Source of the DNA: Thermoguttaceae bacterium
GTDB lineage: Bacteria; Planctomycetota; Planctomycetia; Pirellulales; Thermoguttaceae
NCBI GenBank assembly: GCA_017405595.1
Contig: JAFRAC010000019.1
Span: 1-64,000, forward strand
DNA length: 64,000 nucleotides
Direction of reading: 5' to 3'
The stretch's first letter is position 1; the number at the start of each line of letters is the position of its first letter. The position numbers and the translations under genes are program-made. The notes under the pieces are model-generated. The model was not told where the DNA came from. It made no database searches and saw only the letters and a list, made by a program, of their open reading frames with translations. Positions 3,460 through 54,450 of this stretch are shown piece after piece.

Positions 3460-4644
3460 TTATTCGTCGAGCAGATCGACCGCCGCGAATTTCTTCCCCT
3501 CGAGCATGGCCAGCGAAGCGCCGCCGCCGGTCGAGACGTGGGTCACTTTGTCGGCGAAACCGAGCTTCTGGATCGCCGCGGCGCTGTCGCCGCCGCCGAT
3601 GATGCTGACCGCGTCGCTTTCGGCAATCGCCTGGGCCACGGCTTTGGTCCCTTCGTCGAACGGGGGCATTTCGCAAACGCCCATCGGGCCGTTCCAGACG
3701 ACCGTCTTGGCGCCCTTGACGATCGAGCAGTAGAGTTCGGCGGTTTTCGGGCCGATATCGAGCCCTTCGTAGTCGTCGGCGATTTCGCCCGCCGCGACAA
3801 TCTGCTTGTTGCAGTCGGCACTGAACGCGTCGCCGGCATGGGTGTCGATCGGCAGAACCAGTTTGTCGCCCCCTTCGGCGAGGAGTTCTTTCGCCAGGTC
3901 GACCTTGTCGGGTTCGACGAGCGATTTGCCGACTTTGCCCCCCTGCGCCAGCGAGAAGGTGTACGCCATCGCGCCGCCGATCAGGACTTTGTCGCAGATT
4001 CCCAGAAGGTTCTTGATGACCATGATCTTATCCGAGACTTTCGCGCCGCCGAGAATCGCGACGAACGGACGGGCCGGATTGCTGATCGTGTCGGTCAGGT
4101 ACTTGATCTCCTTTTCGACGAGGAAACCGCAGACCTTCGGTTTGCCGGCCATCGCTTCGGGAACGGCGACCATCGAGGCGTCGGTGCGGTGGCAGGTGCC
4201 GAACGCGTCGTTGACATACACATCGGCGAACGCGGCGAGCTGCTTGGCGAATTCGGGATCGCCCTTCTTTTCGCCCGGCTGAAACCGGAGGTTTTCGAGC
4301 ACGACGACTTCGCCTTCACCCAGAGCGGCCACTTTGGCTTTCGCATCGTCGCCGACGGTGTCGGCCGCGAAGGTGACCTTGTTGTTCGGGAGGAGTTCGG
4401 CCAGACGGTCCGCCGCCGGTTTGAGCGTGAACTTGGCGTCGGGAGCGTCTTTCGGACGGCCGAGGTGACTCATCAGGATCACTTTCCCGCCCCGTTCGAG
4501 AACCGAGGTAATCGTCGGCAGCGCCATTCGGATACGGCGGTCGTCGGTCACGTTTCCGTTTTCGTCGAGCGGCACATTGAAGTCGACACGGATCAGGACG
4601 GCTTTTCCTTTGACATCCACATTTGCAATCGTTTTCTTAGCCAT
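3460..4644 (-). CDS. pgk: Phosphoglycerate kinase
   Basis: This 394-residue protein has the family's usual length. It transfers phosphate between 1,3-bisphosphoglycerate and ADP in lower glycolysis. Visible signatures are the N-terminal substrate loop RVDFNVPLD, the LMSHLGRPK motif, the hinge/ATP-site phrase [11 protein letters not shown], and the C-terminal GGGDSAAAI nucleotide loop. The ATG is preceded by a strong AGGAGG. It is the last gene of a minus-strand run that begins at tpiA, and a terminator follows it. Confidence 0.97.
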
Positions 4645-24097: not shown

Positions 24098-24674
24098 TGC
24101 AGTTTCCTCCCGTTGCTTTTATGTTACGTTTGGGTGATTACGTTTGTTTTTGTTTACCCGATTCCCTTATCTCGCAAAACCGCTTCTATGATGCCATTTT
24201 ACAGATAATTTTATCCTCTATCTTCATTGAAATGCAGTAACGAGACCAACTCAGTTCGGCACACACTGTGTGCCGAATTGGAAAACAGCATTAAAATTGG
24301 CGCATTGCCCTTAAATTTCGTTCGGTATACCCCTTACCGAAGTCGGCTGTTTTCAGTCATGTTATGGTCACAGATATAATTCCGCAAGCAGAAAGGAACG
24401 CCGGAGGAACCCATGGGAACCGATTGTGCCCCAGCGAATCTGTGAACTCATTCTAACCCTAAAATCTGGCTCTTTCAAGAGATCAACGTGAATCTCCCGG
24501 AGGATAGGAGCCAACAGCAAGACCACCGATGTTATGTACCGTCCTTCGTCCATGTTGGTCCGGACGTTTTGCGCTGCGGCCAGCGTTTTGGGAGCTTTCG
24601 TGACGTTTCTGTTTCTTTTCCGTTTTTCCGGAAAGCCCCCGCCGTTTCCCGGCCGGGTTTCGTGTTGATCTTTC
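24098..24674. other. Intergenic region with a 23-bp perfect palindrome
   Basis: No convincing gene is present; the open frames here are out-of-phase shadows. A perfect inverted repeat occupies 24255-24277 (arms TTCGGCACACA and TGTGTGCCGAA around one C). It lacks a T tract on either strand, so it is more likely an operator or RNA stem than a simple terminator. It lies between the nitroreductase start and the end of the HTH-array gene. Confidence 0.6.
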
Positions 24675-26819
24675 TCATTTCGGGGGAAGCAGCGAGCTGC
24701 GGATTCCCAGTTCTTTGCAGATTTCGTAGACCTGGCCGATTCCGCACAGGATTCCCTGTTCGCCGAGCGCCTTCCAGATCTGCTGCGCGTTCGCTTTCCC
24801 CCCCATGTTTGCATTGATCTCTTTAACCTTTTCGGCGAGGGAATCGCGGCCGACCGCCAGATTTTTCGCCGGTGTGTTATTCCACTGCTCGTACGTCGAT
24901 TCGTCGACACCGAGCAGCCGGCACATCATCGGAACCGCGTACGTTTCGCTTTTCTCTTTGATGAACCCGAACTTCGTTTTGATATCCGCTTCGAGAACTC
25001 CCTGGGATTCCCGCAGAAACGCCTTTTCTTCGGGAAGAACCGTTTTCGTCCTTTTCGATACCGTCTTTTTCGGTTTCGGCTGCCAGGTGATTCGTTCGAA
25101 CTTCCGGGGGTGCGCTTCGCGAAGATACCGGTACTCTTCGAGAACCCAGCGGCGCATCCGGGCGGCCGGGCAGCCGAGTTTCTCCGCCGCCTTTTTGAGC
25201 GGATACTGTTCGAAGAGAATCTTATAAACCGCCGAACGGCGGTACCGGTCTGTCCGCCGGTTCCGGCCGGCGCTGTCCGCCGGCTTTTTGCGGATCTTGC
25301 CGCCGAGCTGCTGAACCCACGCGTTCACATCGCCGGTCCTGGCGCTGATTCGTTCGGCGACATCTTCCGGCGTGAGCCCCCCAACCACGACCGCACGCAC
25401 GGCTTTGAGGCGGGCCGCCTTGTCGAACTCCGGCTCCTGGAACAGCGCGCTGATCCCGGTAAGCGTCTCATTTTTCACGCGTTTCGGACGGGCCGCGGCA
25501 GTGGCGCGTTCGAGGAAAAGCCGTTCTCTGCGGCGTGCTTCCTTTCCCCGCCCGTCGTTGACCTGAAGATCGGGATATTTCTCTTTGAGGGCCGCTTCGT
25601 ATTTATGCACCCAAAGGAGAACCGACTGCACCGACCGTCCGACTTCGGCGGCCGCGCGGGCGGGCGTACACCCTTCGAAGAGAACGCGTTTCGCCGTCTG
25701 CATACGCACTTCGGCGGTGACCGAAGGTTTCCGCTGCGGTTTGGCCATCCTGCGCGAACCGGCGTTTTTTTCCTGAGAAGTGCGCGCTTTGCGGGGAACG
25801 GTATTCCGGACTTTTTTGTATCGTTTCAGTTCTCGGCCCGGATTGGCGGCCGTCACCTGTTCGCGGTAAGCTCGGAGCCAGTTAAAGACCGTCGCCTGGG
25901 AACAGCCGAATCGGTTCGCGGCCTCTCCGTAAGAGAGGCCCTCGTAGAGAATCATTTCGACGGCCCGTATCCGCTGCTGAACGGGATGACTGCCGCGCGG
26001 CTCTTGCGGAACAGCGAGGGGGATGCCGGGATTTTCGGCTTTCACCTGTTCGGCGTATCGGGCGATCCAGTTTTTCACCGTGGTAAAAGCGACGCCGAGC
26101 TCTTGGGAGACCCGGTAAGGGACAGCCCCTTCAAAGAGGACCCGTTTTACGGCCTCCTTCTTCTTTTCTTCGGTATTCTTTACGTGCGGCTTTTCGGGGA
26201 GCGGGTTCGCGAGTTGCGAATTCTCGGCTTTGAGCTGGTCTGTGTAACGCTCGGCCCACCCTTTAACCGCACCAAAAGAAACACCGGTTTCATGGGCGAC
26301 CTGATAAAGGGAAGCCCCTTCAAAGAGGGTTCGCCTGACAGCCTCTTTCTTTTCCTCTTCGGTAAGCCGCGCGCGGGTCTTTCCCGTGCGCGGACCCGGC
26401 TGTTTCTGTTTTCGGGCTTTGACCCGGGGACCGAGTTCCTCGATCCATTCCGAGAGTTCGGCGGCGGAACAGCCGACCTTTTGCGCGACACGGCCGCGGG
26501 GATATCCTTTCAGGAGATGGAGTTTTACCGCCTTGATACGGGTCTTTTCGGAAAAGAGCGTCTCTTCACGGTTCAGCCAATCCGAAATCGAGAGATTGGT
26601 CCGAAGAGGCCGGGCACCCTGACGGCGGTTCCTGTAGCTTTTTACCCAGCGTTCGACCGACTCGGCCGGACAGCCGATTTTTTGAGCGGCCTGCTGCGGG
26701 GTATATCCCTTCTTCAGAACCAGCTTTACCCCTCGTAACTTCTCTTTCTTCGAAAAGGAGGCATGCCGGGATGTTCCCTCTTCCGAAAAGATACTGTTTA
26801 AGGTCTTTTTGGGTTTCAT
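24675..26819 (-). CDS. Giant tandem-HTH protein derived from IS3-type transposase DNA-binding modules
   Basis: This 714-residue, very basic protein contains about eight repeated helix-turn-helix units, near residues 24-63, 90-132, 152-197, 217-262, 279-324, 368-413, 466-507 and 525-566. Each follows the pattern K-x-x-AV-x-x-x-L-F-E-G...A-x-x-x-G-x-x...V-x-x-W-x-x-x-Y, as in IS3-family OrfA/HTH_28-type domains. Basic linkers separate them. Residues 622-707 (YAVPMMCRLLGVDESTYEQW ... AQQIWKALGEQGI) resemble the HTH_21 segment that opens IS3 OrfB. The DDE integrase core that should follow is absent, so it cannot transpose by that chemistry. It looks like a domesticated, internally amplified DNA-binding protein. 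Units 3 and 4 are closest to each other, indicating recent duplication. Candidate promoter and direct repeats lie upstream. Confidence 0.75.
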   Translation of the reverse strand: MKPKKTLNSIFSEEGTSRHASFSKKEKLRGVKLVLKKGYTPQQAAQKIGCPAESVERWVKSYRNRRQGARPLRTNLSISDWLNREETLFSEKTRIKAVKLHLLKGYPRGRVAQKVGCSAAELSEWIEELGPRVKARKQKQPGPRTGKTRARLTEEEKKEAVRRTLFEGASLYQVAHETGVSFGAVKGWAERYTDQLKAENSQLANPLPEKPHVKNTEEKKKEAVKRVLFEGAVPYRVSQELGVAFTTVKNWIARYAEQVKAENPGIPLAVPQEPRGSHPVQQRIRAVEMILYEGLSYGEAANRFGCSQATVFNWLRAYREQVTAANPGRELKRYKKVRNTVPRKARTSQEKNAGSRRMAKPQRKPSVTAEVRMQTAKRVLFEGCTPARAAAEVGRSVQSVLLWVHKYEAALKEKYPDLQVNDGRGKEARRRERLFLERATAAARPKRVKNETLTGISALFQEPEFDKAARLKAVRAVVVGGLTPEDVAERISARTGDVNAWVQQLGGKIRKKPADSAGRNRRTDRYRRSAVYKILFEQYPLKKAAEKLGCPAARMRRWVLEEYRYLREAHPRKFERITWQPKPKKTVSKRTKTVLPEEKAFLRESQGVLEADIKTKFGFIKEKSETYAVPMMCRLLGVDESTYEQWNNTPAKNLAVGRDSLAEKVKEINANMGGKANAQQIWKALGEQGILCGIGQVYEICKELGIRSSLLPPK

Positions 26820-26976
26820 TGCGGATATGTCAGTTACTCAAATTGCGCCTTTGGCGTTTTGCTTATCCGTTTTTGCCGTGCGGGGACGCGCTTTTTCAGG
26901 AAAATGGAACCGAAAGAATGACAGGCTGTTTCGGCTGGAGGAAACATTCATACGGTTGAAATGTAAAGTCACAAAA

Positions 26977-26993
26977 CCGGCAGAATCTGCCGG
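26977..26993. promoter_or_regulatory. 17-bp perfect palindrome in the leader of the HTH-array gene
   Basis: Arms CCGGCAGA and TCTGCCGG meet around one base, between the candidate promoter (27027-27054) and the start codon (26819). On the minus strand TTTT follows it, so it could be an attenuator as well as an operator. Confidence 0.45.
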
Positions 26994-27026
26994 CGGGAAG
27001 AAACTTCACTATTTGTATCTATTATA

Positions 27027-27054
27027 ATTATACCATCTATACTTGGTTGTGCAA
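27027..27054 (-). promoter_or_regulatory. Candidate promoter of the HTH-array gene
   Basis: On the minus strand TTGCAC and a perfect TATAAT are separated by 16 bases, in an AT-rich pocket about 200 bases ahead of the start codon. An ACTTGGTT motif inside the spacer on the plus strand echoes the core of the nearby 21-bp repeats. Confidence 0.55.
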
Positions 27055-27124
27055 TCATTTTTAGAGGGTAAAACTCGATTTTTTTGACAGCAGACGGATA
27101 TCCTCAAAAAGGTAAAGTTATTGC

Positions 27125-27208
27125 GGGAGCTTGGTTTTTATAGCCGCGAGCTTGGTTATTATGGCGGTTAGCTTGGTTATTATGGCCGGGTACTTGGTTT
27201 TTATGGCT
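27125..27208 (+). repeat. Four tandem 21-bp direct repeats (iteron-like)
   Basis: Four head-to-tail units start at 27125, 27146, 27167 and 27188. The shared core is CTTGGTT(T/A)TTAT(A/G)GC; the first bases of each unit vary. A period of 21 bp is two helical turns, which would place four identical sites on one face of the DNA. The array sits 300 bases upstream of the HTH-array start and about 70 bases past the candidate promoter. A stop codon in the second-to-third unit argues against translation. No gene is present in the 26820-27312 gap. Confidence 0.85.
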
Positions 27209-27312
27209 TTAGCCGGGAACCGGCACGCCTCAAATCGGGCAGAACCTCAGATTTTCTCTGGAAAAACGCCCTGTAAAACCTGAGTTTTTCTCAGATTTCA
27301 CGCACCGGACAT

Positions 27313-27906: not shown

Positions 27907-28809
27907 TCAGATCAAATGGTGCGGTGCGGGGGTGGCGGACGAAATGATCTTTTCCTTTTCACGGTTCCGAACCGTATCGGCGAGTTCTTCGATTTTCGCG
28001 GTAATCCACATAAACGCGGTCGTTCCTTCCCGGTAATCGGCTTCGGCATACATATCGACCCGGCCGTCGGCGCGCATCTGTTCGACCTGTTTCATGGCTT
28101 CCATATCCCCTTTCGGGTAGATGGCGAAGGTCGAACCGCCGTTCTGCCCGATGAGGGAAAACGCGGGGATATCGCTCGGCCCGTCGGCGATATAGATCAT
28201 ATTCTCGAACTGGACGCGGCGCAGTTCGTTGGGAATTTTCGAGTTGACGTTGATCCCTTCGAGTTTCCCGATCCCCTTATTGATCTCGAAAATCGCGCGC
28301 GTCTTTGTGGTGTTGTCGATCGTATAGACGATTTCGTTAATGACGCCCCCTTCCCACGGTTCGTCGAGCAGCTCGCACCCCCAGACGCCGTCGACCAGCG
28401 GCATCAGTTCCGACCCGCGGATCGTTTCGGCGAACCCGGTACTGACGATATAATGTTCAACCTGGATTCCGTATTCCGAATACGACTCGTCGTTGAGCAG
28501 CTCTTTGGTCCGCCGCAGGATTTCGGGCACGCCGGGATAGAACTTCTGCTGTGCCCCGAACGCGCGGAGCCGCGCATTGTTCAGCCCGGGAAACATGCCG
28601 TTATGCGCGCAGCGGATAAAGTGGTTCAGATAATAGGTATCGGCGTTCACGCGGACCCCCCGCGTACGGGCGATTTCGTCGGGCGCGGCGTTCACTTCAT
28701 GCCAGAACGCGCGGGCGTCGACCCCATATTCCTGAAAGATCGGATCCTGCATATGCCCGTCAACGAGCGTTTTATCGAAATCCCAGATAACAGCGATAAT
28801 GTTCGACAT
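27907..28809 (-). CDS. HAD-superfamily phosphatase
   Basis: This 300-residue protein opens with the nucleophile motif IWDFDKTLVDG (D10, D12, T14). A large helical cap follows, then VSTGFAE (Ser/Thr motif II), a Lys-containing segment, and YIADGPSDIPAF (motif IV). It is a phosphohydrolase of unassigned substrate, larger than phosphoserine phosphatases. It shares a transcript with the macrodomain gene, suggesting a role in ADP-ribose or nucleotide phosphate clean-up; that link is inference. Confidence 0.85.
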   Translation of the reverse strand: MSNIIAVIWDFDKTLVDGHMQDPIFQEYGVDARAFWHEVNAAPDEIARTRGVRVNADTYYLNHFIRCAHNGMFPGLNNARLRAFGAQQKFYPGVPEILRRTKELLNDESYSEYGIQVEHYIVSTGFAETIRGSELMPLVDGVWGCELLDEPWEGGVINEIVYTIDNTTKTRAIFEINKGIGKLEGINVNSKIPNELRRVQFENMIYIADGPSDIPAFSLIGQNGGSTFAIYPKGDMEAMKQVEQMRADGRVDMYAEADYREGTTAFMWITAKIEELADTVRNREKEKIISSATPAPHHLI

Positions 28810-29115: not shown

Positions 29116-30948
29116 CTACAGATAATCCTCCACCCGAATCCCGGCCTCTTCGACAAACCTGCGCAGCTTTTTCATCGCCCGGCATTCGATCTGCCGCACC
29201 CTTTCGCGGGTAATCCCGAAGACCTTCCCGATTTCTTCGAGTGTATAGGCGCGCCCGTCGGCGATCCCGTACCTCAGCCGGAGAATCTTCCGTTCCCGCC
29301 GGTCGAGCCGATGCAGAAGCAGACGGGCGAACCGGTATTTTTCCCGTTCCGCCATCTGGTCAGCCGGCTCGTCGTCGCGGCTCGGAACCACGGAATCATC
29401 GAACTCAACATATCCTGTGTTATCAGTATCTTCCGGGATCTCTTTCAGCCGCGGCACCAGCGATTCGACCCTTCTGACCGGTTTCAGCCGTTCGAGCAAG
29501 TAGGCTGTCCGGTTTTTGCCGCCGCCGGTATGCCCGGGCAATATTCGGGAGATCCTCTCCCAATCCGCGTTGGTTTTCGCGCTCAGACAGTTGTTTTGTT
29601 TCAGGAGAGGCAGCAGCTTGCAATACAGATCGTTCAGCTGGACCGGAAACCGTATTCCCGTACGGCACTTCGAATTCGTTCGGAGAATCGCGGAATCCAT
29701 CCGCCACACAACGCCGCTGAAAGAGCGTTTTCCCGGTTTGAGCCGAAACCGGTCAATTTCGGTCAGCAGTCCGAGACAGGCGTCGCCGATCGAGTCGTCC
29801 AGATCGAAATCATACTTTTTCGCGCTGCGGTATGCCGTCCGAACCGCAACACGCAGATACATTTCCGCGGCACGGTTCCGCGCCTTTTGATCCCCCGACC
29901 GTGCCTGGCGGATTACCTTCATAAACTCGCCGTACTGGGGCGGCATAATCGACTGGATTTCATCAACGAACGCCTCGAGTGTTCCGTCGCGTCTCTTAAC
30001 ACTTTCGAACAGCTGTTTGTAGTTCGAATGGGCGTAATCGAAACAGGCCCGATCCCTGTCATTGATTTCAGTCCGCGCGGCAGCCAGATCCGCCGCGGTT
30101 TTCCCTTCGGCTTTTTCCGGCTCATTTTTCGGCTCTGTTTCCGATACCGCGCCCGCCGGCGTCTCGCCTTCGGGCGCCGCGTCCTTCGCCAAAGGCCGCG
30201 GCTTCCGCCTTCGCCGCCGGAACCGGTAATCGCCGAACACCGCGCCGGTCAGATACTCTTCCGGCGAGAGATTCGCGGCCCGGGCGGCGGCGCAAACCCG
30301 TTCGATATCGACCGCCCCGCAAACCACATCGACCAGTTTGTCCGGAAACAGGCTACGCGGAACCCTGGACATCGGCGGCAGGCCCGCCAGGCGCCGTGCG
30401 GCAGCTTCGGCGACATACTCATCGAACGGCAGAGTCCAAAACCGGGCCGCCCGTTCGATCCGTCTCTTTTCGCCGGCGCCGATCCGGATTGTGCCGGGCG
30501 GCTGCTGTTTCGGCGGTTCCGGTTTCAGGGCAGGCGGCTTCAGAACTTCCGCCGCCGGCGCGTATTCCCCGAAAATCGCGCCGCGCAGAAATTCATGTAC
30601 CGTAATACCCAGTGCGCGGGCGGCACTGACGATTTTCATCTTTTCCGACTGCGTAAAACTGCAGCCGATCGACGAATCCGCCGCCGCGCCCGCAGCCCGT
30701 TCGATTCTGACGACCGGCGGACGGCCGACCAGGCGCCGCCGGATCGCGCCGATCACAAATTCCTGAAACGAGAGCCGCGCGCCGGCCGCCGCCAGCCGGA
30801 TCTGTTCCTTATCCGCGGCCGAGACAGGCACACTGGCAAGAACCGGCCAATCGATGGCCGGCCTTTTTGCCGTTCGGTTCGGCAGGCCGGAAAGCAGCTT
30901 ACCGACGCGCTCCATAACCGCTTTGCGATCCTGCTCTTGTGTTAACAT
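29116..30948 (-). CDS. Sigma-70-type factor with duplicated N-terminal RHH-like units
   Basis: This is a 610-residue protein. Residues 356-424 match sigma region 2 (MYLRVAVRTAYRSAKKYDFDLDDSIGDACLGLL) and 540-597 match region 4 (LDRRERKILRLRYGI...TLEEIGKVFGITRERVRQIECRAMKKLRR). The first 245 residues hold four short helical units at about 42-82, 95-133, 153-197 and 208-243. They resemble ribbon-helix-helix/DUF1778-type segments. Units 1 and 3 end in RRL.G.PP..R and units 2 and 4 in GA.FG.Y, so the order is A-B-A-B. A charged linker (245-300) joins the halves. Region 2 aromatic melting residues look degenerate, and region 1.1 is absent. It is probably an alternative sigma factor with an added DNA- or protein-binding array. 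Its final stop lies at 29116. Confidence 0.8.
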   Translation of the reverse strand: MLTQEQDRKAVMERVGKLLSGLPNRTAKRPAIDWPVLASVPVSAADKEQIRLAAAGARLSFQEFVIGAIRRRLVGRPPVVRIERAAGAAADSSIGCSFTQSEKMKIVSAARALGITVHEFLRGAIFGEYAPAAEVLKPPALKPEPPKQQPPGTIRIGAGEKRRIERAARFWTLPFDEYVAEAAARRLAGLPPMSRVPRSLFPDKLVDVVCGAVDIERVCAAARAANLSPEEYLTGAVFGDYRFRRRRRKPRPLAKDAAPEGETPAGAVSETEPKNEPEKAEGKTAADLAAARTEINDRDRACFDYAHSNYKQLFESVKRRDGTLEAFVDEIQSIMPPQYGEFMKVIRQARSGDQKARNRAAEMYLRVAVRTAYRSAKKYDFDLDDSIGDACLGLLTEIDRFRLKPGKRSFSGVVWRMDSAILRTNSKCRTGIRFPVQLNDLYCKLLPLLKQNNCLSAKTNADWERISRILPGHTGGGKNRTAYLLERLKPVRRVESLVPRLKEIPEDTDNTGYVEFDDSVVPSRDDEPADQMAEREKYRFARLLLHRLDRRERKILRLRYGIADGRAYTLEEIGKVFGITRERVRQIECRAMKKLRRFVEEAGIRVEDYL

Positions 30949-31101: not shown

Positions 31102-34100
31102 TTATGCGGCTCCGTCTTGCCTTTCATAGAAATAATCGAACAGCTTGTCCCTGCATTCCGTTATATTGATTTCCTCATAGACTTTCGGCAAGTTTTTCCA
31201 AAGGGTATCTCTAATGAGATTCCGAAGGCTCTCTCTTGTTTCCTGTTTGTCTCTCCAGTGGTCGGTTTTTGCGAGCATCGCGTTAACCTGTTGCAAAATG
31301 TCAACGGCCACTTCCTTAATCTTTTTGATCTCTTGACGGTTAAGGTCCTCTTTTAAAAGCAAATCAAAGATCGAAAGCTCTTCATCATTACTGAAACCCT
31401 CTCGGACATAGCGCTGTTGTTCTTCATCTAGCTCACCCGCAATACGCATGAGCTCGATAAAGGTCTTTTCAATCATTGCGCTGTCCTGTTCATTGTTATA
31501 GTCGTCTATGATTTTCTGATAGCGTTCGAGGAAATTCACACGGGAATGATTCAGCATGACCATACTTTCCAACTTCTGTTCGATAATATCACTTAGGTCT
31601 TTTAAGATCAGGTGTCTTGTCTTTGCCTGTTTAAACTCTTCATGCAAATGATCGAAGTCGATACTGCTGATGTTAAACCGCTTTTCGGAATTATCTCTCT
31701 TATCGGTTCCTACGACTGAAACGTAATTGTTGAGAATCGCATTGATCTGTACCATAAGTTCGGTATTATCGGCATGCTTTTTCTTTTTTTGTAATCGTGC
31801 GTAAATCTCACAAACGGCATCGTATTCTCTCCGTCTTTCTGTGTTAATATCATCTTTATTCAGGTATTTTTTTAACCGTTTGGCTTCTTTGACAATCGCG
31901 CAAAACATTTTTCTTTCTTCAAGAGTCCGGCAGACAGCATCCGCGCCCTCTTTTACGAGCCCAGCCTTCTGAAACCCGTTCGCACTGATTAGCAGCTTCA
32001 GTTCAAAGCCATGCGAAGCAAGTACACCTTTTGCATTTTCAATACAATCTATAAAATGACTGATAAGCTCCGATTTATCTATAGTGGGGTCAACACCTCC
32101 AGTTTTAGCCCTGTTAACCGTATAGTCTGCGAGTGCTTTTCGCAGGGCTTTAACGATACCGATATAATCGACGATAAGGCCGTTGGTCTTTCCTTCGGCA
32201 ACCCTGTTAGCTCTTGCGATTGTCTGCATAAGGTTGTGGGCTCTTAGCAGCTTGTCAAGATAGAGACACGAGAGGCATTTAACATCGAACCCCGTCAGCC
32301 ACATCGCGCAGACGAAAACGATACGGAACGGGTTATTCTCATCTTTAAACTCTTTGTCGAGTTCACGGCGATCCATCTTTAACCGATGCGGAATAATGTC
32401 CAACCCCCATTTCTGAAACGTCTGTTCTTCATTTTGTTCTTGGCTGATAACAACGGCCATTTCCGTTTCTTCCATCCATACCAGTTTTCTTTCCAGTTCT
32501 TGTGCGGCCTGCTGGTCTTTTGATTGTTTAATCTTTTTCTTTAAAGCCCCGATCTCTTCTTTCCAGTATTCTTGAACGTAGTTATACATTCGTACGCAAG
32601 TGACCTTGTTCAAGCATACGAACATGGCTTTCCCGCTGGTCCAAATTTCCTCGTCCGTATAATGATGAACAAAATCTTTGGCGATCGATCGAAGGCGCGG
32701 TTCCGCCTGTAAAAGGTGAATGGCTTTGGCAATTTGGGCTTCAAGCTTATCGGTTTGGTCCTGATCAAGATCCGCATTCTCGATTGCCTCGATAATCTGG
32801 TCGTTAATTACCGGACTGAATATATCACGGATCTTTTCTCCGCGGTTTTCATAATAGAGAGGAACCGTTGCTCCGTCTTCGACCGCGCGGTTAAAATCGT
32901 AAATAGAGAGATAATCGCCGAAAGTTACCGCGGTAAGATCCCCTTTAAGAAGGGGCGTGCCGGTAAACCCGATACGTGAGGCGGTGGGCAAAAGTTTTTC
33001 CAAGTTAGCGGCAAAAACACCATACTGACTGCGATGGGCTTCATCCGACATGATGATAATATCATGGTCGGGATAAATCGGTTTTTCGTTCGGCAGATTA
33101 AATTTCTGGATCAGAGTAAAGATAAAACTCGGGTTCCCGTTAAGTTTATGAATAAGGTCTTTTCCGCTGGTAGCGATGAACTGTGAACCTTTGGCTTTAC
33201 CCATTAAACCGCAGCCTAAAAAAGTCTCGCAGATCTGTTTGTTCAGTTCATCACGGTCGGTTAAAATTACAATCGTTGGGGAACCGGAGAATTTCCGTCT
33301 GATCTTTTGTGAAAGGAAAATCATCGAGTAACTTTTTCCGGATCCTTGCGTATGCCAGAAGACGCCTAAACGGCCTTTTCGCGCCTTTCGCTGCGTGTAG
33401 GCTTTAACCGCTTCGTTGACGCCGAGGTACTGGTGGTTCCGAGCAAGGATCTTAACGGTCTTTCCGCCGGAATGGTCAAAGAGAATAAAGTTTTCAAGGA
33501 GGTCGAGAAAGTTTTCTTTCTTACAGATACCCTTTAGCATGGTTTCAAGGTCGACACTTCCGCGGTCATCTTCCCTGAGTCGTTTCCATTCATGGAAAAA
33601 AGCATATTTGCTTCCGAGGGTCCCGATTTTGGCTTCATCACCGTTTGATAACATAACAAAAGCGTTATAGTAGAAAAGCTGAGGTATTGAATGTTGATAA
33701 TGTGTATAATTATCGGTATAGGCATTTTGGACATCGACGCTTAGCTTTTTTAATTCGATGAAAAGAAGGGGGATCCCATTGATGAAACCGACGATGTCGG
33801 TACGGCAGTTGTAAACGGCCCCGTGAATTATTAGCTCTTTAATGGCGAGGAAATGGTTATTTTCAGGGTTATCAAAATCGACAATCGTGGCCCGCTTCGT
33901 CTCAGTTTTTCCGTCATTAAGCTTAACTGTTACGGGGATGCCGTCACGGATAAAGAAATACTTTTCTTCGTTGATTTCTAAAAGCGAAGCTGCGGAACTA
34001 TGACTTTGAAATTTTTCGATGGCTTCGTTAATTTGTGTTTCTGTGATCCAGCTGTTGAATTGTTTTAGAGCGGCACGGAAATAACGGAGTAAGAGTACTT

Positions 34101-34245
34101 CCTTATAACTCGTTCTGCCGAACGTTCCGTTAACGCCAAGAATTTCATCATTGAACGCCCATTGGACTTCCCAACCAAGCTGATCTTGGAGCAGATTAGC
34201 TGCGCTTTCTTGAACGAGTTGGTTTTCGGAGTATTCGTAGCTCAT
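31102..34245 (-). CDS. hsdR: Type I restriction enzyme subunit R
   Basis: This 1047-residue protein has a normal length for HsdR. The N-terminal nuclease domain shows D150 in RTDIVGF and the E164-L-K166 triad in LLFIELKK, the PD-(D/E)xK site. A superfamily 2 translocase follows: Walker A VFWHTQGSGKSYS (residues about 296-308), SDEAHRSQYG near residue 405, and SRIGFTGTPL. It ends with the helical, charged domain that docks on the methyltransferase. HsdR cleaves unmodified DNA after ATP-driven translocation. The ATG at 34245 overlaps the stop of the RelA/SpoT-type gene by 4 bases, so its translation is coupled to that gene rather than to hsdS. Confidence 0.96.
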   Translation of the reverse strand: MSYEYSENQLVQESAANLLQDQLGWEVQWAFNDEILGVNGTFGRTSYKEVLLLRYFRAALKQFNSWITETQINEAIEKFQSHSSAASLLEINEEKYFFIRDGIPVTVKLNDGKTETKRATIVDFDNPENNHFLAIKELIIHGAVYNCRTDIVGFINGIPLLFIELKKLSVDVQNAYTDNYTHYQHSIPQLFYYNAFVMLSNGDEAKIGTLGSKYAFFHEWKRLREDDRGSVDLETMLKGICKKENFLDLLENFILFDHSGGKTVKILARNHQYLGVNEAVKAYTQRKARKGRLGVFWHTQGSGKSYSMIFLSQKIRRKFSGSPTIVILTDRDELNKQICETFLGCGLMGKAKGSQFIATSGKDLIHKLNGNPSFIFTLIQKFNLPNEKPIYPDHDIIIMSDEAHRSQYGVFAANLEKLLPTASRIGFTGTPLLKGDLTAVTFGDYLSIYDFNRAVEDGATVPLYYENRGEKIRDIFSPVINDQIIEAIENADLDQDQTDKLEAQIAKAIHLLQAEPRLRSIAKDFVHHYTDEEIWTSGKAMFVCLNKVTCVRMYNYVQEYWKEEIGALKKKIKQSKDQQAAQELERKLVWMEETEMAVVISQEQNEEQTFQKWGLDIIPHRLKMDRRELDKEFKDENNPFRIVFVCAMWLTGFDVKCLSCLYLDKLLRAHNLMQTIARANRVAEGKTNGLIVDYIGIVKALRKALADYTVNRAKTGGVDPTIDKSELISHFIDCIENAKGVLASHGFELKLLISANGFQKAGLVKEGADAVCRTLEERKMFCAIVKEAKRLKKYLNKDDINTERRREYDAVCEIYARLQKKKKHADNTELMVQINAILNNYVSVVGTDKRDNSEKRFNISSIDFDHLHEEFKQAKTRHLILKDLSDIIEQKLESMVMLNHSRVNFLERYQKIIDDYNNEQDSAMIEKTFIELMRIAGELDEEQQRYVREGFSNDEELSIFDLLLKEDLNRQEIKKIKEVAVDILQQVNAMLAKTDHWRDKQETRESLRNLIRDTLWKNLPKVYEEINITECRDKLFDYFYERQDGAA

Positions 34246-35303
34246 GGAATCGTGTCTCCATTAATGTAGGATCTAACGATATTAGTAAATGTTGTAATAT
34301 CATTAAAGTAGTTCGGGTATGCTTTTCTCAGATCACTAAATTTTGAGACTCGCACAAGGACAACGTCAAGGTTGCCACACCATTTTTGTTCTTCAAGTTC
34401 ATTATATTTCTGATTAGCTTCTTCAAATTCACTCGACTTGAAGGTGAATACCGATAATTTACGACTAACATAATTCAATAGTAAAACGAAATATGTTGAT
34501 TTTCTGGATAACTTATTTTGTTCATATGCTACGATCTCCTTTATTCCGTCAAGTTGGGCTAGGTAATTGTTTTTTACATTTAACTCCATTATTTCCTGAA
34601 TAATTTTTACCGGGTTATTAGGTGTACAAGGTACTGTTGTCGTTTTTTCTTTTATTGCAAAGAGGGAAGATACTAATGCAAAGAATCGTTTAACGTCATC
34701 TGAACCTTGGCCTGACTTAAGAGATTGGTTCGTAAGAAGTCCCATTGTTTCCACTGCGGTCGCCCAAAGATGTTGAAGTTGAGTTCTAAACTGCAACTCA
34801 ATTAACATGTTATTATTGTAGGCATCATTACTATCACTATGATATTCATATACTACATGGTAACTTCTATACCCGGATTCTTTTGGTGTTTCCATGTAGT
34901 CATAAATTTTTTTACGATGGTGGCGTTTTCGTGAAGTTTCATAGATTTTTGAATATTTGTAGACGTCATCTATAGAAGGAACTATAATGCGACACCCCCC
35001 AAGATCTTGCATTGTCCACAGGCTCATATTTGGTTCTCTCTTGAGCTTGCTAATAATAGAGTTCATTCTTTTCAAACGCTCTGCAACAATAATATTGTTA
35101 TTCCCCTTGGCAAATCTGCGTAGATGTGTATAAATGATATGCAAAGGAAATGCGTGTGCGGCACGCCAATTATCTATTATTTTTCTCGTTTCCTCTCTCT
35201 CTTGTTCGTCTCGAAAAAGATCTTTTTTAATGGTTTTCCCTGCACGGATGATTTGTGTTCGGGAATATTCAACTGTTTTCCATTTGGGTTGTCTTAATTT
35301 CAT
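34242..35303 (-). CDS. RelA/SpoT-domain (p)ppGpp-type synthetase embedded in the RM operon
   Basis: This is a 353-residue protein. Residues about 70-190 carry the synthetase core: RLKRMNSIISKLKRE (the R..S...K nucleotide-binding helix, K86), MQDLGGCRIIVPS (D100, G103, R105), YMETPKESGYRSYHVVYEY (the GYRS.H loop), and IELQFRTQLQHLWATAVE (E169, Q171, catalytic acid region). All residues needed for pyrophosphate transfer appear present. There is no HD hydrolase domain and no TGS/ACT regulatory region, so it is a small alarmone synthetase-like protein with its own 150-residue C-terminal helical/beta domain. It overlaps hsdS and hsdR by 4 bases on each side. It is markedly AT-rich. Possible products are (p)ppGpp, (p)ppApp or pyrophosphorylated tRNA, as in the toxSAS and CapRel families. 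Confidence 0.88.
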   Translation of the reverse strand: MKLRQPKWKTVEYSRTQIIRAGKTIKKDLFRDEQEREETRKIIDNWRAAHAFPLHIIYTHLRRFAKGNNNIIVAERLKRMNSIISKLKREPNMSLWTMQDLGGCRIIVPSIDDVYKYSKIYETSRKRHHRKKIYDYMETPKESGYRSYHVVYEYHSDSNDAYNNNMLIELQFRTQLQHLWATAVETMGLLTNQSLKSGQGSDDVKRFFALVSSLFAIKEKTTTVPCTPNNPVKIIQEIMELNVKNNYLAQLDGIKEIVAYEQNKLSRKSTYFVLLLNYVSRKLSVFTFKSSEFEEANQKYNELEEQKWCGNLDVVLVRVSKFSDLRKAYPNYFNDITTFTNIVRSYINGDTIP

Positions 35304-36418
35304 TTAGCACCCTTCGTCCCTGTTATTAATTTTGTTAAAAGTTGATTTCTAGACTTCACAGAACACTCCGTCATAGTTCGTAAGACATGAATCTTCCTAA
35401 GGATAGGATTTGTGATTCTCAAGAAATTTTTTGAAATGTCTATTGTGGGAACAATTATAGTTTCAGCCTTTAGAAATTTAAAATGGCGTGCATAGTGATA
35501 ATTTGACAGGTCGAGTTTGACAATACTAAAATAAAGAAGAGGAACAGGCATCTCTGGAAGCCTAGATGTTATTAACTGTGTCCCATCAGCACCACAAGCG
35601 AAAGGAAACTGAATATATTTAATGCTTCGCGTATGATCCCCAAATACGATTACAGGTGGTTTAACATTTACAATTGTGTCTTGGTCATTAGTATAACCGG
35701 CAATGAAGTCTTTTCCCTGGTCGATAATTGGAATAGAACCCTCGGGAAGATAGTCCTTCTTTTTTACTGTTGGTGGCCTTTTGATCTTGCATAGAATGGA
35801 ATCAATAGTCATCCTGTGCCACCCTGATGGCAAACCGTCAACAAAAGCTGTGTTCTCATGGCCCGGAAAACGGAAATCCACAAACCATTCTTTGTAGAGC
35901 AGTTGAGCTGCTTCCTCGAGGAGTTTTATTTGCTTGTGGTTGTTTTCGACGAGGTCATCATAGGAGGAGAGAATCTTACCAATTTTTCGTTGAGTTCTAG
36001 TATCGGGAAAGTCTACCGTAATATTTTCGAAGACCTTATTATTTACACGCTGTCGTCCTGTTGCTCCTGTCATGGAGTTAATCATACGTGATCTGATGAA
36101 ATCAGTCTGCATAAAGTAGTATAAGTACTTATTGTCAGTAAACACGTCTTTGGGGCGAAAAACAAGGAATTCGGTAGAACCAAATCCCTTGCCAATGTTA
36201 TCGCAATAAAACCTTTTGCCATTTTGAAGACATGGTGTTATCCTTGCAATAACGGTATCGCCATCTTGAAACCGAACCCCGGAATTAAAGGGCTTCATCT
36301 CAGTTCTTATTGGTTGCCGATAAGATGAACTAACATTTCCCATCTCAATAAATGGATATACTTCCCCTTTAGTCATGCTAACACAGGGGTTTAACAATAT
36401 ACGGTCCAGAAACTTCAT
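35300..36418 (-). CDS. hsdS: Type I restriction enzyme specificity subunit
   Basis: This 372-residue subunit has two target-recognition domains (about 10-150 and 185-335), each followed by a conserved helix. The first helix is TQRKIGKILSSYDDLVENNHKQIKLLEEAAQLLYKEWFVDFRFPGHE, a nearly standard HsdS central spacer. The second at the C-terminus is shorter. The two recognition domains determine the two halves of the bipartite DNA target. The N-terminal region begins close to TRD1 without the usual leading helix, so a slightly truncated N-terminus is possible. The ATG overlaps the hsdM stop by 4 bases. Confidence 0.92.
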   Translation of the reverse strand: MKFLDRILLNPCVSMTKGEVYPFIEMGNVSSSYRQPIRTEMKPFNSGVRFQDGDTVIARITPCLQNGKRFYCDNIGKGFGSTEFLVFRPKDVFTDNKYLYYFMQTDFIRSRMINSMTGATGRQRVNNKVFENITVDFPDTRTQRKIGKILSSYDDLVENNHKQIKLLEEAAQLLYKEWFVDFRFPGHENTAFVDGLPSGWHRMTIDSILCKIKRPPTVKKKDYLPEGSIPIIDQGKDFIAGYTNDQDTIVNVKPPVIVFGDHTRSIKYIQFPFACGADGTQLITSRLPEMPVPLLYFSIVKLDLSNYHYARHFKFLKAETIIVPTIDISKNFLRITNPILRKIHVLRTMTECSVKSRNQLLTKLITGTKGAK

Positions 36419-38235
36419 AGACCCATCTCCTTCATGTTTTCAGAGATGGTTTTCAACAATTCATCAGATTCTGCCTGGAGCACCTGTAGTTCTGAGTGGA
36501 TCTCCCGAATACGTTGTCCAAAATCTACTCCGTCATCTTGAACCTCTATTACCCCGACGTAAGCTCCCGGGGTTAACGACCAGCTTTTCTCTTCGATTTC
36601 CGAAATTAGGGCTACTTTACAGAGTCCCGGAATGTCTTTGTATTTTCCGGTGCCGAATTTCGTCGTAAGCCACACGGCTTCCTCGGCTATTTTTCTTCGT
36701 TCCTCCCGCTCCGTGATCTTGTCGTCATATTCCACCTCGATTCGCTTCTTGTCCTTCCTATCGGCTTCTTCCACGGCTTTTTTACCTTCGGCTTTAAGTT
36801 TTTTAATTTCCTTTTCAAGCCGGGTTAAGATTGTCTTGAATTGGCTACCGCCGAGTGTTTCTTTGTATTCATCGATAAGAGATATGTATTTTTCTTTCTC
36901 TCCTCTGTAAAGCCATACTATTGCGTTAAGGTTTTTCAGCTGCCACTCGGTCCAAATATTGAGTGTGCGGTCGACAACAGTGTAGTAGTTTCGTGCGTCA
37001 ATAAAGAGGACTTTATCCTGGATCTTCTTTGCCTTTCCCTTATCGAAGAACCATAGCGTGCAAGGCAGCGATTTTGTATAGAAAAAGTTGGTGCCGACAG
37101 ATAGCATGACATCAACATGCCCTGTTTTAACCAGCTTTTCACGGATACCCTTGTCTTTGCTCTGGCTGTCGGTCGCCGACGAGGCCATTACGAATCCAGC
37201 CCGGCCCCGTTCATTGAGGTAGGAGTAGAAATAGGAGATCCAAAGATAGTTGGCGTTGCTGACCTCCTTGTTTTTATTAACCGCCGGCATGCCGAACGGG
37301 AGCCGGCCGGCGTTTTCGCACGTGTCGGCTTTGACCATATCGACGTTAAACGGCGGATTTGCCATAACGTAATCGCATTTACCGTTCAGATTGTGTGCAT
37401 CGTAGTAGAAAGTGTTGGCTTCGTTTCCTGTTTTGATGAGACCTGTAAGCCCATGAACAGCGATGTTCATCAGGCAGAGCTGCGCGTTATATTCAACCTT
37501 TTCTTGACCGTAAAAGGTCATTGTCCGATTGGCGTTCATGCCGGCGGCGTTGACAAAATCACCGCTTTGAATAAACATTCCGCCGCTACCGCAGGCGGGG
37601 TCGAGAAGTACGCCCCCGCTTGGTTCGAGCACATTGACGATCATTTTAACAAGCGATTTCGGGGTGAAGAAAACCCCATCGTCGGAGGCGATATTCTTGG
37701 CGAACTTGTTAAGGAAATATTCGTAAATACGGCCGATAACATCGCCGTCTTCGATATCGAGCGCGCTGTTGTTAAAAATGCGGAGCAGGCTCGATAACAG
37801 TTCATCGGTGAAGTCGGTATAGGTTTTTGGGAGTACGCCGACGAGCTGTTCCGATTGATCTTCGATGAGCCGCATTGCGTTATTAACGACTTCCCCGAGC
37901 GAGTTCATCGGGTGTCCGTCTTTGTTGACTAACTTGACCGAAGTGATGTTTTCGGGCAGATTGACGAGGTATTCGTATTGGGCTTCTTTGGGTAGAAAAA
38001 GCGCGCTTTTGGCGCTAAAATCACTCTGTTCCACCGGCAGAACCTTACCGCCGCGTTTGGGACGGTTTTTCAGAATTTCAGCTTCAACCTTCTTAAACCG
38101 GGAGTATGCGTATTTGAGGAAGATAAGGCCAAGAACCGGCATGCAGTACTGGTTGGAAGTCAGTTTTGATCCTTCACGTAAAGAATCCGCGGCTTTCCAC
38201 AGATCGTTCTCTAAAATCCTAATATTGGTCATCAT
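36415..38235 (-). CDS. hsdM: Type I restriction enzyme methyltransferase subunit
   Basis: This is an adenine-N6 methyltransferase of 606 residues from the ATG at 38235 (an in-frame TTG at 38280 would add 15). The N-terminal helical HsdM domain (NDLWKAADSLREGSKLTSNQYCMPVLGLIFLKY) leads to the SAM-binding motif LLDPACGSGGMFIQ at residues 210-223 and the catalytic NPPF at 293-296. A coiled-coil region near residues 465-510 (KEIKKLKAEGKKAVEEADRKD) and a C-terminal specificity-binding tail follow. Together with HsdS it methylates, and with HsdR it restricts. GAGGA precedes the ATG at a rather long distance. It is the first gene of the four-gene operon. Confidence 0.96.
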   Translation of the reverse strand: MMTNIRILENDLWKAADSLREGSKLTSNQYCMPVLGLIFLKYAYSRFKKVEAEILKNRPKRGGKVLPVEQSDFSAKSALFLPKEAQYEYLVNLPENITSVKLVNKDGHPMNSLGEVVNNAMRLIEDQSEQLVGVLPKTYTDFTDELLSSLLRIFNNSALDIEDGDVIGRIYEYFLNKFAKNIASDDGVFFTPKSLVKMIVNVLEPSGGVLLDPACGSGGMFIQSGDFVNAAGMNANRTMTFYGQEKVEYNAQLCLMNIAVHGLTGLIKTGNEANTFYYDAHNLNGKCDYVMANPPFNVDMVKADTCENAGRLPFGMPAVNKNKEVSNANYLWISYFYSYLNERGRAGFVMASSATDSQSKDKGIREKLVKTGHVDVMLSVGTNFFYTKSLPCTLWFFDKGKAKKIQDKVLFIDARNYYTVVDRTLNIWTEWQLKNLNAIVWLYRGEKEKYISLIDEYKETLGGSQFKTILTRLEKEIKKLKAEGKKAVEEADRKDKKRIEVEYDDKITEREERRKIAEEAVWLTTKFGTGKYKDIPGLCKVALISEIEEKSWSLTPGAYVGVIEVQDDGVDFGQRIREIHSELQVLQAESDELLKTISENMKEMGL

Positions 38236-38288
38236 ATGAGTTTTCCGGTCCTCAAATCTGAGTGCAATTTGTTTGCCCAATAAACAGC

Positions 38289-52224: not shown

Positions 52225-54450
52225 CTACCCCCACTCCTTCACCCGCTTCTTCATTCCTTCGGTGTCCAGAACGCCGAGCGCGAACCCTTTTCGGACGAGT
52301 TCTTCCGGCACGTATTCATCGTATTTCTCGAACGCGGGAATCTCGCCGGGGTAAACCAGCTCGAGCGGGTCGAACTCCTGCGCCGCTTCTTCGGCGACGA
52401 TCTGGAAAAACTCTTCTGGGCTTTTTTCCATCGTAAACTGAAGGTAGTAGGGGCGCGCCGAAGAGAGTCCCCGCAAGCCGAGCCGGGACGCGCACTTGAT
52501 TTTCAGGAACCGTTCGAGCGCCAGAAACGCGTAACTGCCGAGCCAGGGGAAGAGCGCCCACATTTTGCCGCCCAGGCAGATGAGCGGTTTGGCGCCCATC
52601 CCCGATTTGCCGAACCAATCTCGCGCGTCGGCCAGCCGCGCGGCGGCGTGCCGCATCAGGTAGGGATATCGTTTCTGTTCGGAAAGCACCCCGCGCATCC
52701 GCTCTAAAACACGCGTGTGAATGTCGCCCGGGCAGTCGCCGAAATAGGCGGGAATGTTCCCTTTCACCAGATTGCAGTAGACTTCGTGCTTTTGGCGGTC
52801 AACCTCTTCGACCACCCAAACGCGGCCGGCGATGGCGATCTTTTCGCCGATCGGCGGCGGCTGGACGATGGTGCCGAGCTCTTCGGAGCCGGACCGGACC
52901 GAGTACTCGATGTTCTCCTGAAAGACGGCGTAGAACTTGTAGTTGTTCGTGATCCGTTCCCCCGTAATTCCGACGATCAGGCCGCCGTGTTCGGTGCGGT
53001 TGATGTGGTCGATGTTCAGGAGATGCCGAAGGAGTGTCCGGTAGTCGTCCTGGGTGATCCGGCGGAAGCAGGAAAGGGATAAAACGCGGCTGGCCAGTTC
53101 GGCGGGGGTCATTTCGCCGCACGAGGCGAGCGTGCTCATCGTCTGGTGGTACAGCAGACTGAACGGCAGCCGGTCGGTGCGCGGCGGTTCCACAAACCGT
53201 TCCTCCAAATAGAGCTGTACCAGCGCGATTCCCTGGATCAAGTACCACGGAATCATGTCGGGGAGCATGGCGCGCGGTTCGGGGTGCGCTTCGCGCATGA
53301 CGAACCACATTTCGGACGGCGTGCCGCGCCGGCCGGTCCGCCCCATCCGCTGGAGGAAACCCGAAACGGTAAAGGGCGCGTCCACATGAAACGCGCGTTC
53401 GAGCCGGCCGATGTCGATTCCCAATTCGAGGGTGGCGGTGGCGCAGACCGACATGAGCGAATCGTCGTCGCGCATTTCGTCTTCGGCGCTTTCGCGGTAC
53501 GAAACCGACAGGTTGCCGTGATGGATCAGAAACCGTTCCGGCTCGTGTTTTGCCTCGCAGTATTGGCGGAGGATCTGGCAGACCGACTCACACTCTTCCC
53601 GCGAGTTGGTGAAGACAAGGCACTTCTTCCCGCGTGTGTGTTCGAAGATGTAGCCGAGTCCCGGGTCGGCGGCGGCCGGCGCTTTGTCGGTTGCCGGTTC
53701 GAGCGCCGGGGTGCCGGCGGGCGCCGGTTTCCCTTCCCCGGCCTGCGGCGGCGTGTTAAAGAAGTGCTCCATCGAAAGGCGCCAGACCTCGTTCCCCCCC
53801 TCGCAGCGGGGAACGGCGGTGCCGCGCCCGCTTCCGGCGGCGAGAAATTCCCCCGCCGCCTGCGGGTTGCCGATCGTCGCCGAAAGGCCGACCCGGCGCG
53901 GAGTGCAGCCGGCGAGTTTCGTGAGCCGTTCGATGAGGCAGAAGGTCTGCATTCCGCGGTCGCCGCGCAGCAGGGAATGGATTTCGTCGATCACAATGAA
54001 CCGCAGGTCGCCGAACAGGGAAGGGATCTCCATGTGCTTGTTGATCATGAGCGATTCCAGCGATTCGGGTGTGATCTGCAGAATGCCGCCCGGCTTTTTC
54101 AAGAGTTTGCGTTTGCGCGTCTGCGCCACGTCGCCGTGCCAGCGGTGGACCGGAATGTGTGCCTCCTCGCAAAGTTCGTTGAGCCGGCCGAACTGGTCGT
54201 TGATGAGCGCTTTGAGCGGCGCGATATACAGTACGCCGATGCTCGACGAGGGGGATTCGTCGAGCAGGGTGAGAATCGGGAAGAACGCCGCTTCGGTTTT
54301 GCCCGAGGCGGTCGAGGCGGTGAGGAGCAGATTCTGGTCGGTGTTGAAAATCGCTTCCCCTGCGGCGTTCTGCACCCCGCGCAGCGACTGCCAGCCGCTG
54401 CGGTAGATGTAGTCCTGAATGAAAGGGGCGTACCGCTCGAAAACGTTCAT
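52225..54450 (-). CDS. sngC: Shango-type helicase (Lhr/BrxHI-like, SngC)
   Basis: This is a 741-residue superfamily 2 helicase. Walker A TASTASGKTEAA (residues 44-54), IAPLKALINDQ, RWHGDVAQTRK, DEIH in VIDEIHSLLRGDRG, SATIGNP, and motif VI QRMGRTGRRGTPSE are all visible. This block order is that of Lhr-type and BREX BrxHI helicases. After the motor comes a 350-residue C-terminal region specific to the family. The protein is short relative to full-length Lhr. Its start overlaps the BrxD-like gene by 4 bases. In Shango the helicase is one of three essential proteins. Confidence 0.87.
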   Translation of the reverse strand: MNVFERYAPFIQDYIYRSGWQSLRGVQNAAGEAIFNTDQNLLLTASTASGKTEAAFFPILTLLDESPSSSIGVLYIAPLKALINDQFGRLNELCEEAHIPVHRWHGDVAQTRKRKLLKKPGGILQITPESLESLMINKHMEIPSLFGDLRFIVIDEIHSLLRGDRGMQTFCLIERLTKLAGCTPRRVGLSATIGNPQAAGEFLAAGSGRGTAVPRCEGGNEVWRLSMEHFFNTPPQAGEGKPAPAGTPALEPATDKAPAAADPGLGYIFEHTRGKKCLVFTNSREECESVCQILRQYCEAKHEPERFLIHHGNLSVSYRESAEDEMRDDDSLMSVCATATLELGIDIGRLERAFHVDAPFTVSGFLQRMGRTGRRGTPSEMWFVMREAHPEPRAMLPDMIPWYLIQGIALVQLYLEERFVEPPRTDRLPFSLLYHQTMSTLASCGEMTPAELASRVLSLSCFRRITQDDYRTLLRHLLNIDHINRTEHGGLIVGITGERITNNYKFYAVFQENIEYSVRSGSEELGTIVQPPPIGEKIAIAGRVWVVEEVDRQKHEVYCNLVKGNIPAYFGDCPGDIHTRVLERMRGVLSEQKRYPYLMRHAAARLADARDWFGKSGMGAKPLICLGGKMWALFPWLGSYAFLALERFLKIKCASRLGLRGLSSARPYYLQFTMEKSPEEFFQIVAEEAAQEFDPLELVYPGEIPAFEKYDEYVPEELVRKGFALGVLDTEGMKKRVKEWG

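Follow-up and report, generated by a model that had tools for sequence, protein, structure and literature searches.

Capture of transposase DNA-binding domains by their hosts is well known in eukaryotes. In prokaryotes, the reuse of mobile-element regulators has been reviewed (PMC8987985), and Cbp1, the CRISPR-repeat-binding protein of Sulfolobales, consists of three helix-turn-helix (HTH) domains that arose by domain duplication and are ordered along the CRISPR repeat (PMC10883916). Several HTH domains also occur in the TnsD-like target selectors of Tn7-type transposons, which are transposon-linked DNA-recognition proteins (PMC10293859), and the OrfA proteins of some IS3-family elements carry three of them. 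The gene described here lies within the first 64,000 nucleotides of contig JAFRAC010000019.1 of a Thermoguttaceae bacterium, a planctomycete of gut or rumen (assembly GCA_017405595.1), which is the stretch analyzed as a whole and hereafter called the window. It encodes a protein with eight HTH units in tandem and an IS3-like C-terminal tail, but no catalytic core, and is probably a domesticated derivative of an IS3 transposase.

Like IS3-family OrfA and OrfAB of the IS150-like kind, this array protein has HTH_Tnp_1/HTH_23 units and an OrfB N-terminal segment with HTH_21, and it matches the NCBIfam IS3 model NF033516; unlike them, it has eight HTHs, no DDE core and no frameshifted gene pair, and its gene is single-copy, with no convincing inverted repeats among the longest pairs. 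Cbp1 (PDB 2lvs) likewise combines tandem HTHs with the lack of an enzyme domain, but it is archaeal, has three HTHs instead of eight, and matches in fold at just E 0.26. TnsD-like selectors contain a TniQ core and act together with a transposase, two features not seen in the array protein. DUX4 and Pax share tandem three-helix HTHs on linkers (Foldseek probability 0.60–0.85, E 0.3–1), but they are eukaryotic, have two units, and are alike in the fold search alone. Searches of the literature on bacterial tandem-HTH arrays yielded distant cases only. The gene and its parts are as follows:

24675–26819, minus strand: eight-HTH array protein with IS3-like tail, 714 aa (open reading frame, Pfam, NCBIfam, leave-one-out profiles)
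26622–26759, minus strand: HTH unit 1, residues 21–66 (leave-one-out 56.0 bits)
26421–26558, minus strand: HTH unit 2, residues 88–133 (49.6 bits)
26226–26369, minus strand: HTH unit 3, residues 151–198 (49.1 bits)
26034–26177, minus strand: HTH unit 4, residues 215–262 (54.3 bits)
25848–25988, minus strand: HTH unit 5, residues 278–324 (36.1 bits)
25584–25721, minus strand: HTH unit 6, residues 367–412 (30.1 bits)
25296–25427, minus strand: HTH unit 7, residues 465–508, most diverged (18.1 bits; best shuffle 6.7)
25110–25253, minus strand: HTH unit 8, residues 523–570, start of the IS3-like half (27.5 bits; NF033516 over 527–708)
24678–25004, minus strand: OrfB N-terminal-like tail with HTH_21, residues 606–714, stop before any rve domain (Pfam, NCBIfam)

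The open reading frame (ORF) is intact, starts with ATG and is read in a single frame; its product is very basic (isoelectric point 10.2; 81 kDa). A preliminary description of this DNA, made from the letters alone, had counted eight HTH units, and the same number was obtained here: Pfam HTH_Tnp_1 matched in eight stretches (E 3.3e-37), and each unit was retrieved with a profile made from the remaining seven (18.1 to 56.0 bits), in every case above its own best of 1,000 shuffles (6.5 to 13.3). The motif proposed for them, AV...LFEG...A...G....V..W, is a fair description, although W is the sole invariant column in the alignment. Pairwise unit scores ranged from 26 to 156, compared with a shuffled mean of 20.8 (SD 4.0; maximum of 500 shuffles 42); the few pairs that do not exceed this maximum all involve unit 7 or 8, and unit 7 is the weakest and most diverged member of the array. 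This mutual resemblance supports the tandem amplification suggested earlier. Units 3 and 4 are the most alike, yet just 69% identical in DNA. Recognition helices vary from unit to unit, and the linkers (14–52 aa) are in several cases strongly basic. An AlphaFold model from the single sequence (mean predicted local distance difference test [pLDDT] 59.3; predicted template modeling score 0.20) contains three helices per unit, with pLDDT mostly 60–92 and about 50 in unit 7, and most linkers at low confidence. A sequence search of the PDB gave a single match (2jn6, E 0.082). A PADLOC match to mad1 was set aside, as it spans 24 residues of one HTH.

NF033516 covers residues 527–708, corresponding to positions 3–182 of its 369 (OrfA HTH through HTH_21), whereas no part of its second half was matched; the protein as a whole scores 143.3 bits, under the cut-off of 160. 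No rve domain was among the Pfam matches of the protein. The HTH_21-like segment followed by a stop before any DDE domain is present as previously noted, and an IS3-transposase origin of units and tail, likewise proposed then, is supported by the HTH_Tnp_1 and NF033516 matches. An intact rve domain reached through a frameshift had been named as evidence to the contrary. A six-frame search of the metagenome-assembled genome (MAG; 2.67 Mb, 85% complete, with perhaps some 15% of the genome absent) found no rve or integrase core, the gene is one continuous frame and not a frameshifted orfA/orfB pair, and an overlapping 180-aa frame (24368–24910) gave no domain match of note.

The gene is single-copy: no second copy was found in the MAG, nor any HTH_Tnp_1 match outside the array ORF. 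Across 119 genomes of the family, the host genome had eight matches to the unit profile and each of the other 118 had at most two. Residues 1–520 gave only short matches (43 to 92 residues) in 397 genomes of the order and 392 of the phylum (overlapping draws); among plasmid and phage records, none spans 80% of the protein, and the ones listed extend to 27% of it; and scans for close relatives in genome and viral contigs returned nothing. A free-standing array of this length is, as had been supposed, unusual in the genomes and records sampled.

One core-less relative was found in a congener (G006). This 213-aa protein, P0002, has a single HTH joined by a linker to a similar tail, and ends near the same point as the array protein. 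Its stop codon is 56 bp from the end of a convergent gene (ABC-type by reading of its sequence), so no rve domain follows. In a tree, the tails of P0002 and the array protein group apart from genuine IS3 transposases (97/94; 97/96 with three long rows removed). G006 also carries an IS3 fragment with the best matches seen, an OrfA (46 bits with the unit profile) and an OrfB N-terminus (E 1.7e-13). P0002 itself is located at 3640–4281 of G006 contig C41, directly downstream of a heparinase-like gene, and this contig has several genes in common with the window at 39–50 kb.

The codon score of the array gene (−1.01) falls among those of resident genes (−0.79 to −1.03), whereas the five other frames of the locus score −1.26 or lower. 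Between units 3 and 4, nonsynonymous divergence (dN) is 0.28 and synonymous divergence (dS) 0.99 (Fisher P 5e-4 on rounded counts), a difference that indicates constraint since their duplication.

The gene is located in a segment without counterpart at the same place in three same-genus genomes (G001, G004 and G006), where the nitroreductase gene directly follows the macro-domain gene. In the window, 3.2 kb separates these two genes and holds the array gene and a set of short repeats:

24098–27312, no strand: additional 3.2-kb segment separating the macro-domain gene from the nitroreductase gene, ends approximate (comparison with three same-genus genomes)
27127–27207, no strand: four tandem copies of a 21-bp repeat, some 310 bp upstream of the array gene's start codon, a candidate site (sequence)

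The insert may have been gained in the host or lost in the three congeners. Among the 25 longest of 75 inverted-repeat pairs, none encloses the ORF in the manner of element ends, the insert ends being approximate. The tandem repeats may be the operator of the array gene, for which they are a candidate only. They were rejected as a dispersed genome-wide target, since, with up to two mismatches allowed, their 17-bp core recurs nowhere else in the host genome; it matches once in the six congeners taken together. Noncoding sequence of the insert also contains a near-perfect inverted repeat (14 nt, one-base spacer; 24252–24280).

The flanks of the gene are syntenic with congeners, and the contig is 124 kb long. 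A second rearrangement lies beside the insert: gene 52225–54450 and the HAD gene 27907–28809, adjacent in G001, G004 and G006, are 23 kb apart in the window (28810–52224). This gap contains type I restriction-modification genes (31102–38280, minus strand), which differ from their surroundings in GC content and codon usage (codon score −1.15 to −1.67) and were probably acquired recently. It also contains a sigma-70 factor gene (29116–30948, minus strand; region 4, E 2.3e-18), whose product has an N-terminal match to NikA-like ribbon-helix-helix domains, with about four related units repeated by eye. Its best family matches are limited to the C-terminal half, and this N-terminal array may also be lineage-specific.

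Taken together, the array protein probably came from an IS3 transposase, lost the catalytic core and was domesticated as a multivalent DNA binder; its binding, target and role are inferred. An OrfA-type HTH would have been retained and multiplied, and the N-terminal HTH segment of OrfB retained as the DDE core was lost; the resulting gene would be expressed and under selection. DNA binding is predicted because the HTH families are named by domain search. Folded HTHs on flexible, often basic linkers could bind along one long site, composite or repeated, or at several sites simultaneously, and thereby repress, bridge or organize the bound DNA, a mode of action for which Cbp1 offers a precedent. 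As the recognition helices vary between units, a composite site is favored over eight copies of one site. That these helices diverged to read one long composite site, making the protein the equivalent, in a bacterium, of a polydactyl zinc-finger protein, is a tentative and rather unlikely extension. The domestication put forward in the preliminary description is backed by the intact ORF, the codon usage, the low dN relative to dS and the core-less relative in the genus, all of them indirectly. Several observations weigh against it. The case is one gene in one MAG, and as no orthologue of the array was found, selection on the gene in its present form cannot be measured; part of the constraint between units 3 and 4 may predate loss of the core. 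HTH_21 is weak on its own (residues 659–708; E 8e-4, 20 bits, under the Pfam cut-off of 28.1), and the fold search returned nothing at E<0.001, the structures listed being Cbp1, DUX4, Pax and Tc3 DNA-binding regions. Furthermore, the grouping of the two tails is based on about 130 columns with very long branches, that of P0002 especially, and hence counts as support, not proof.

Alternatively, an IS150-type element with an unusually long multi-HTH OrfA could have lost its OrfB core and left the gene behind as a non-functional remnant. The location of the gene in an insert would fit, as would OrfA-type ORFs with three recognizable units on plasmids of S. aureus and E. faecalis; three was the maximum in the multi-HTH transposase ORFs retrieved. 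However, a 2.1-kb frame is open with all eight units still recognizable, convincing terminal inverted repeats are lacking among the longest pairs, a core-less relative occurs in another species, and the combination of host-like codons with dN below dS argues against a relic; we consider this origin unlikely. A trans-acting repressor of IS3 elements, occupying element ends like OrfA without cutting and silencing more tightly with more HTHs, would be in keeping with the finding of no rve gene in the host genome, whereas G006 has its IS3 fragment. Yet without IS3 elements in this incomplete assembly, the target would be gone, and differing recognition helices are not expected if all units read one repeat, which makes this role quite improbable. 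An artefact of assembly or gene calling, also raised at the outset, might be suspected of a single example from a MAG, but the units differ strongly in DNA (even units 3 and 4), the coding frame stands apart from the other five in codon score, and the flanks are syntenic on a long contig; this explanation is very improbable indeed.

If the domestication of an IS3-derived protein is true, the core-less eight-unit array would clearly exemplify, in a bacterium, how a captured domain is subsequently amplified, and binding assays could reveal its sites directly.
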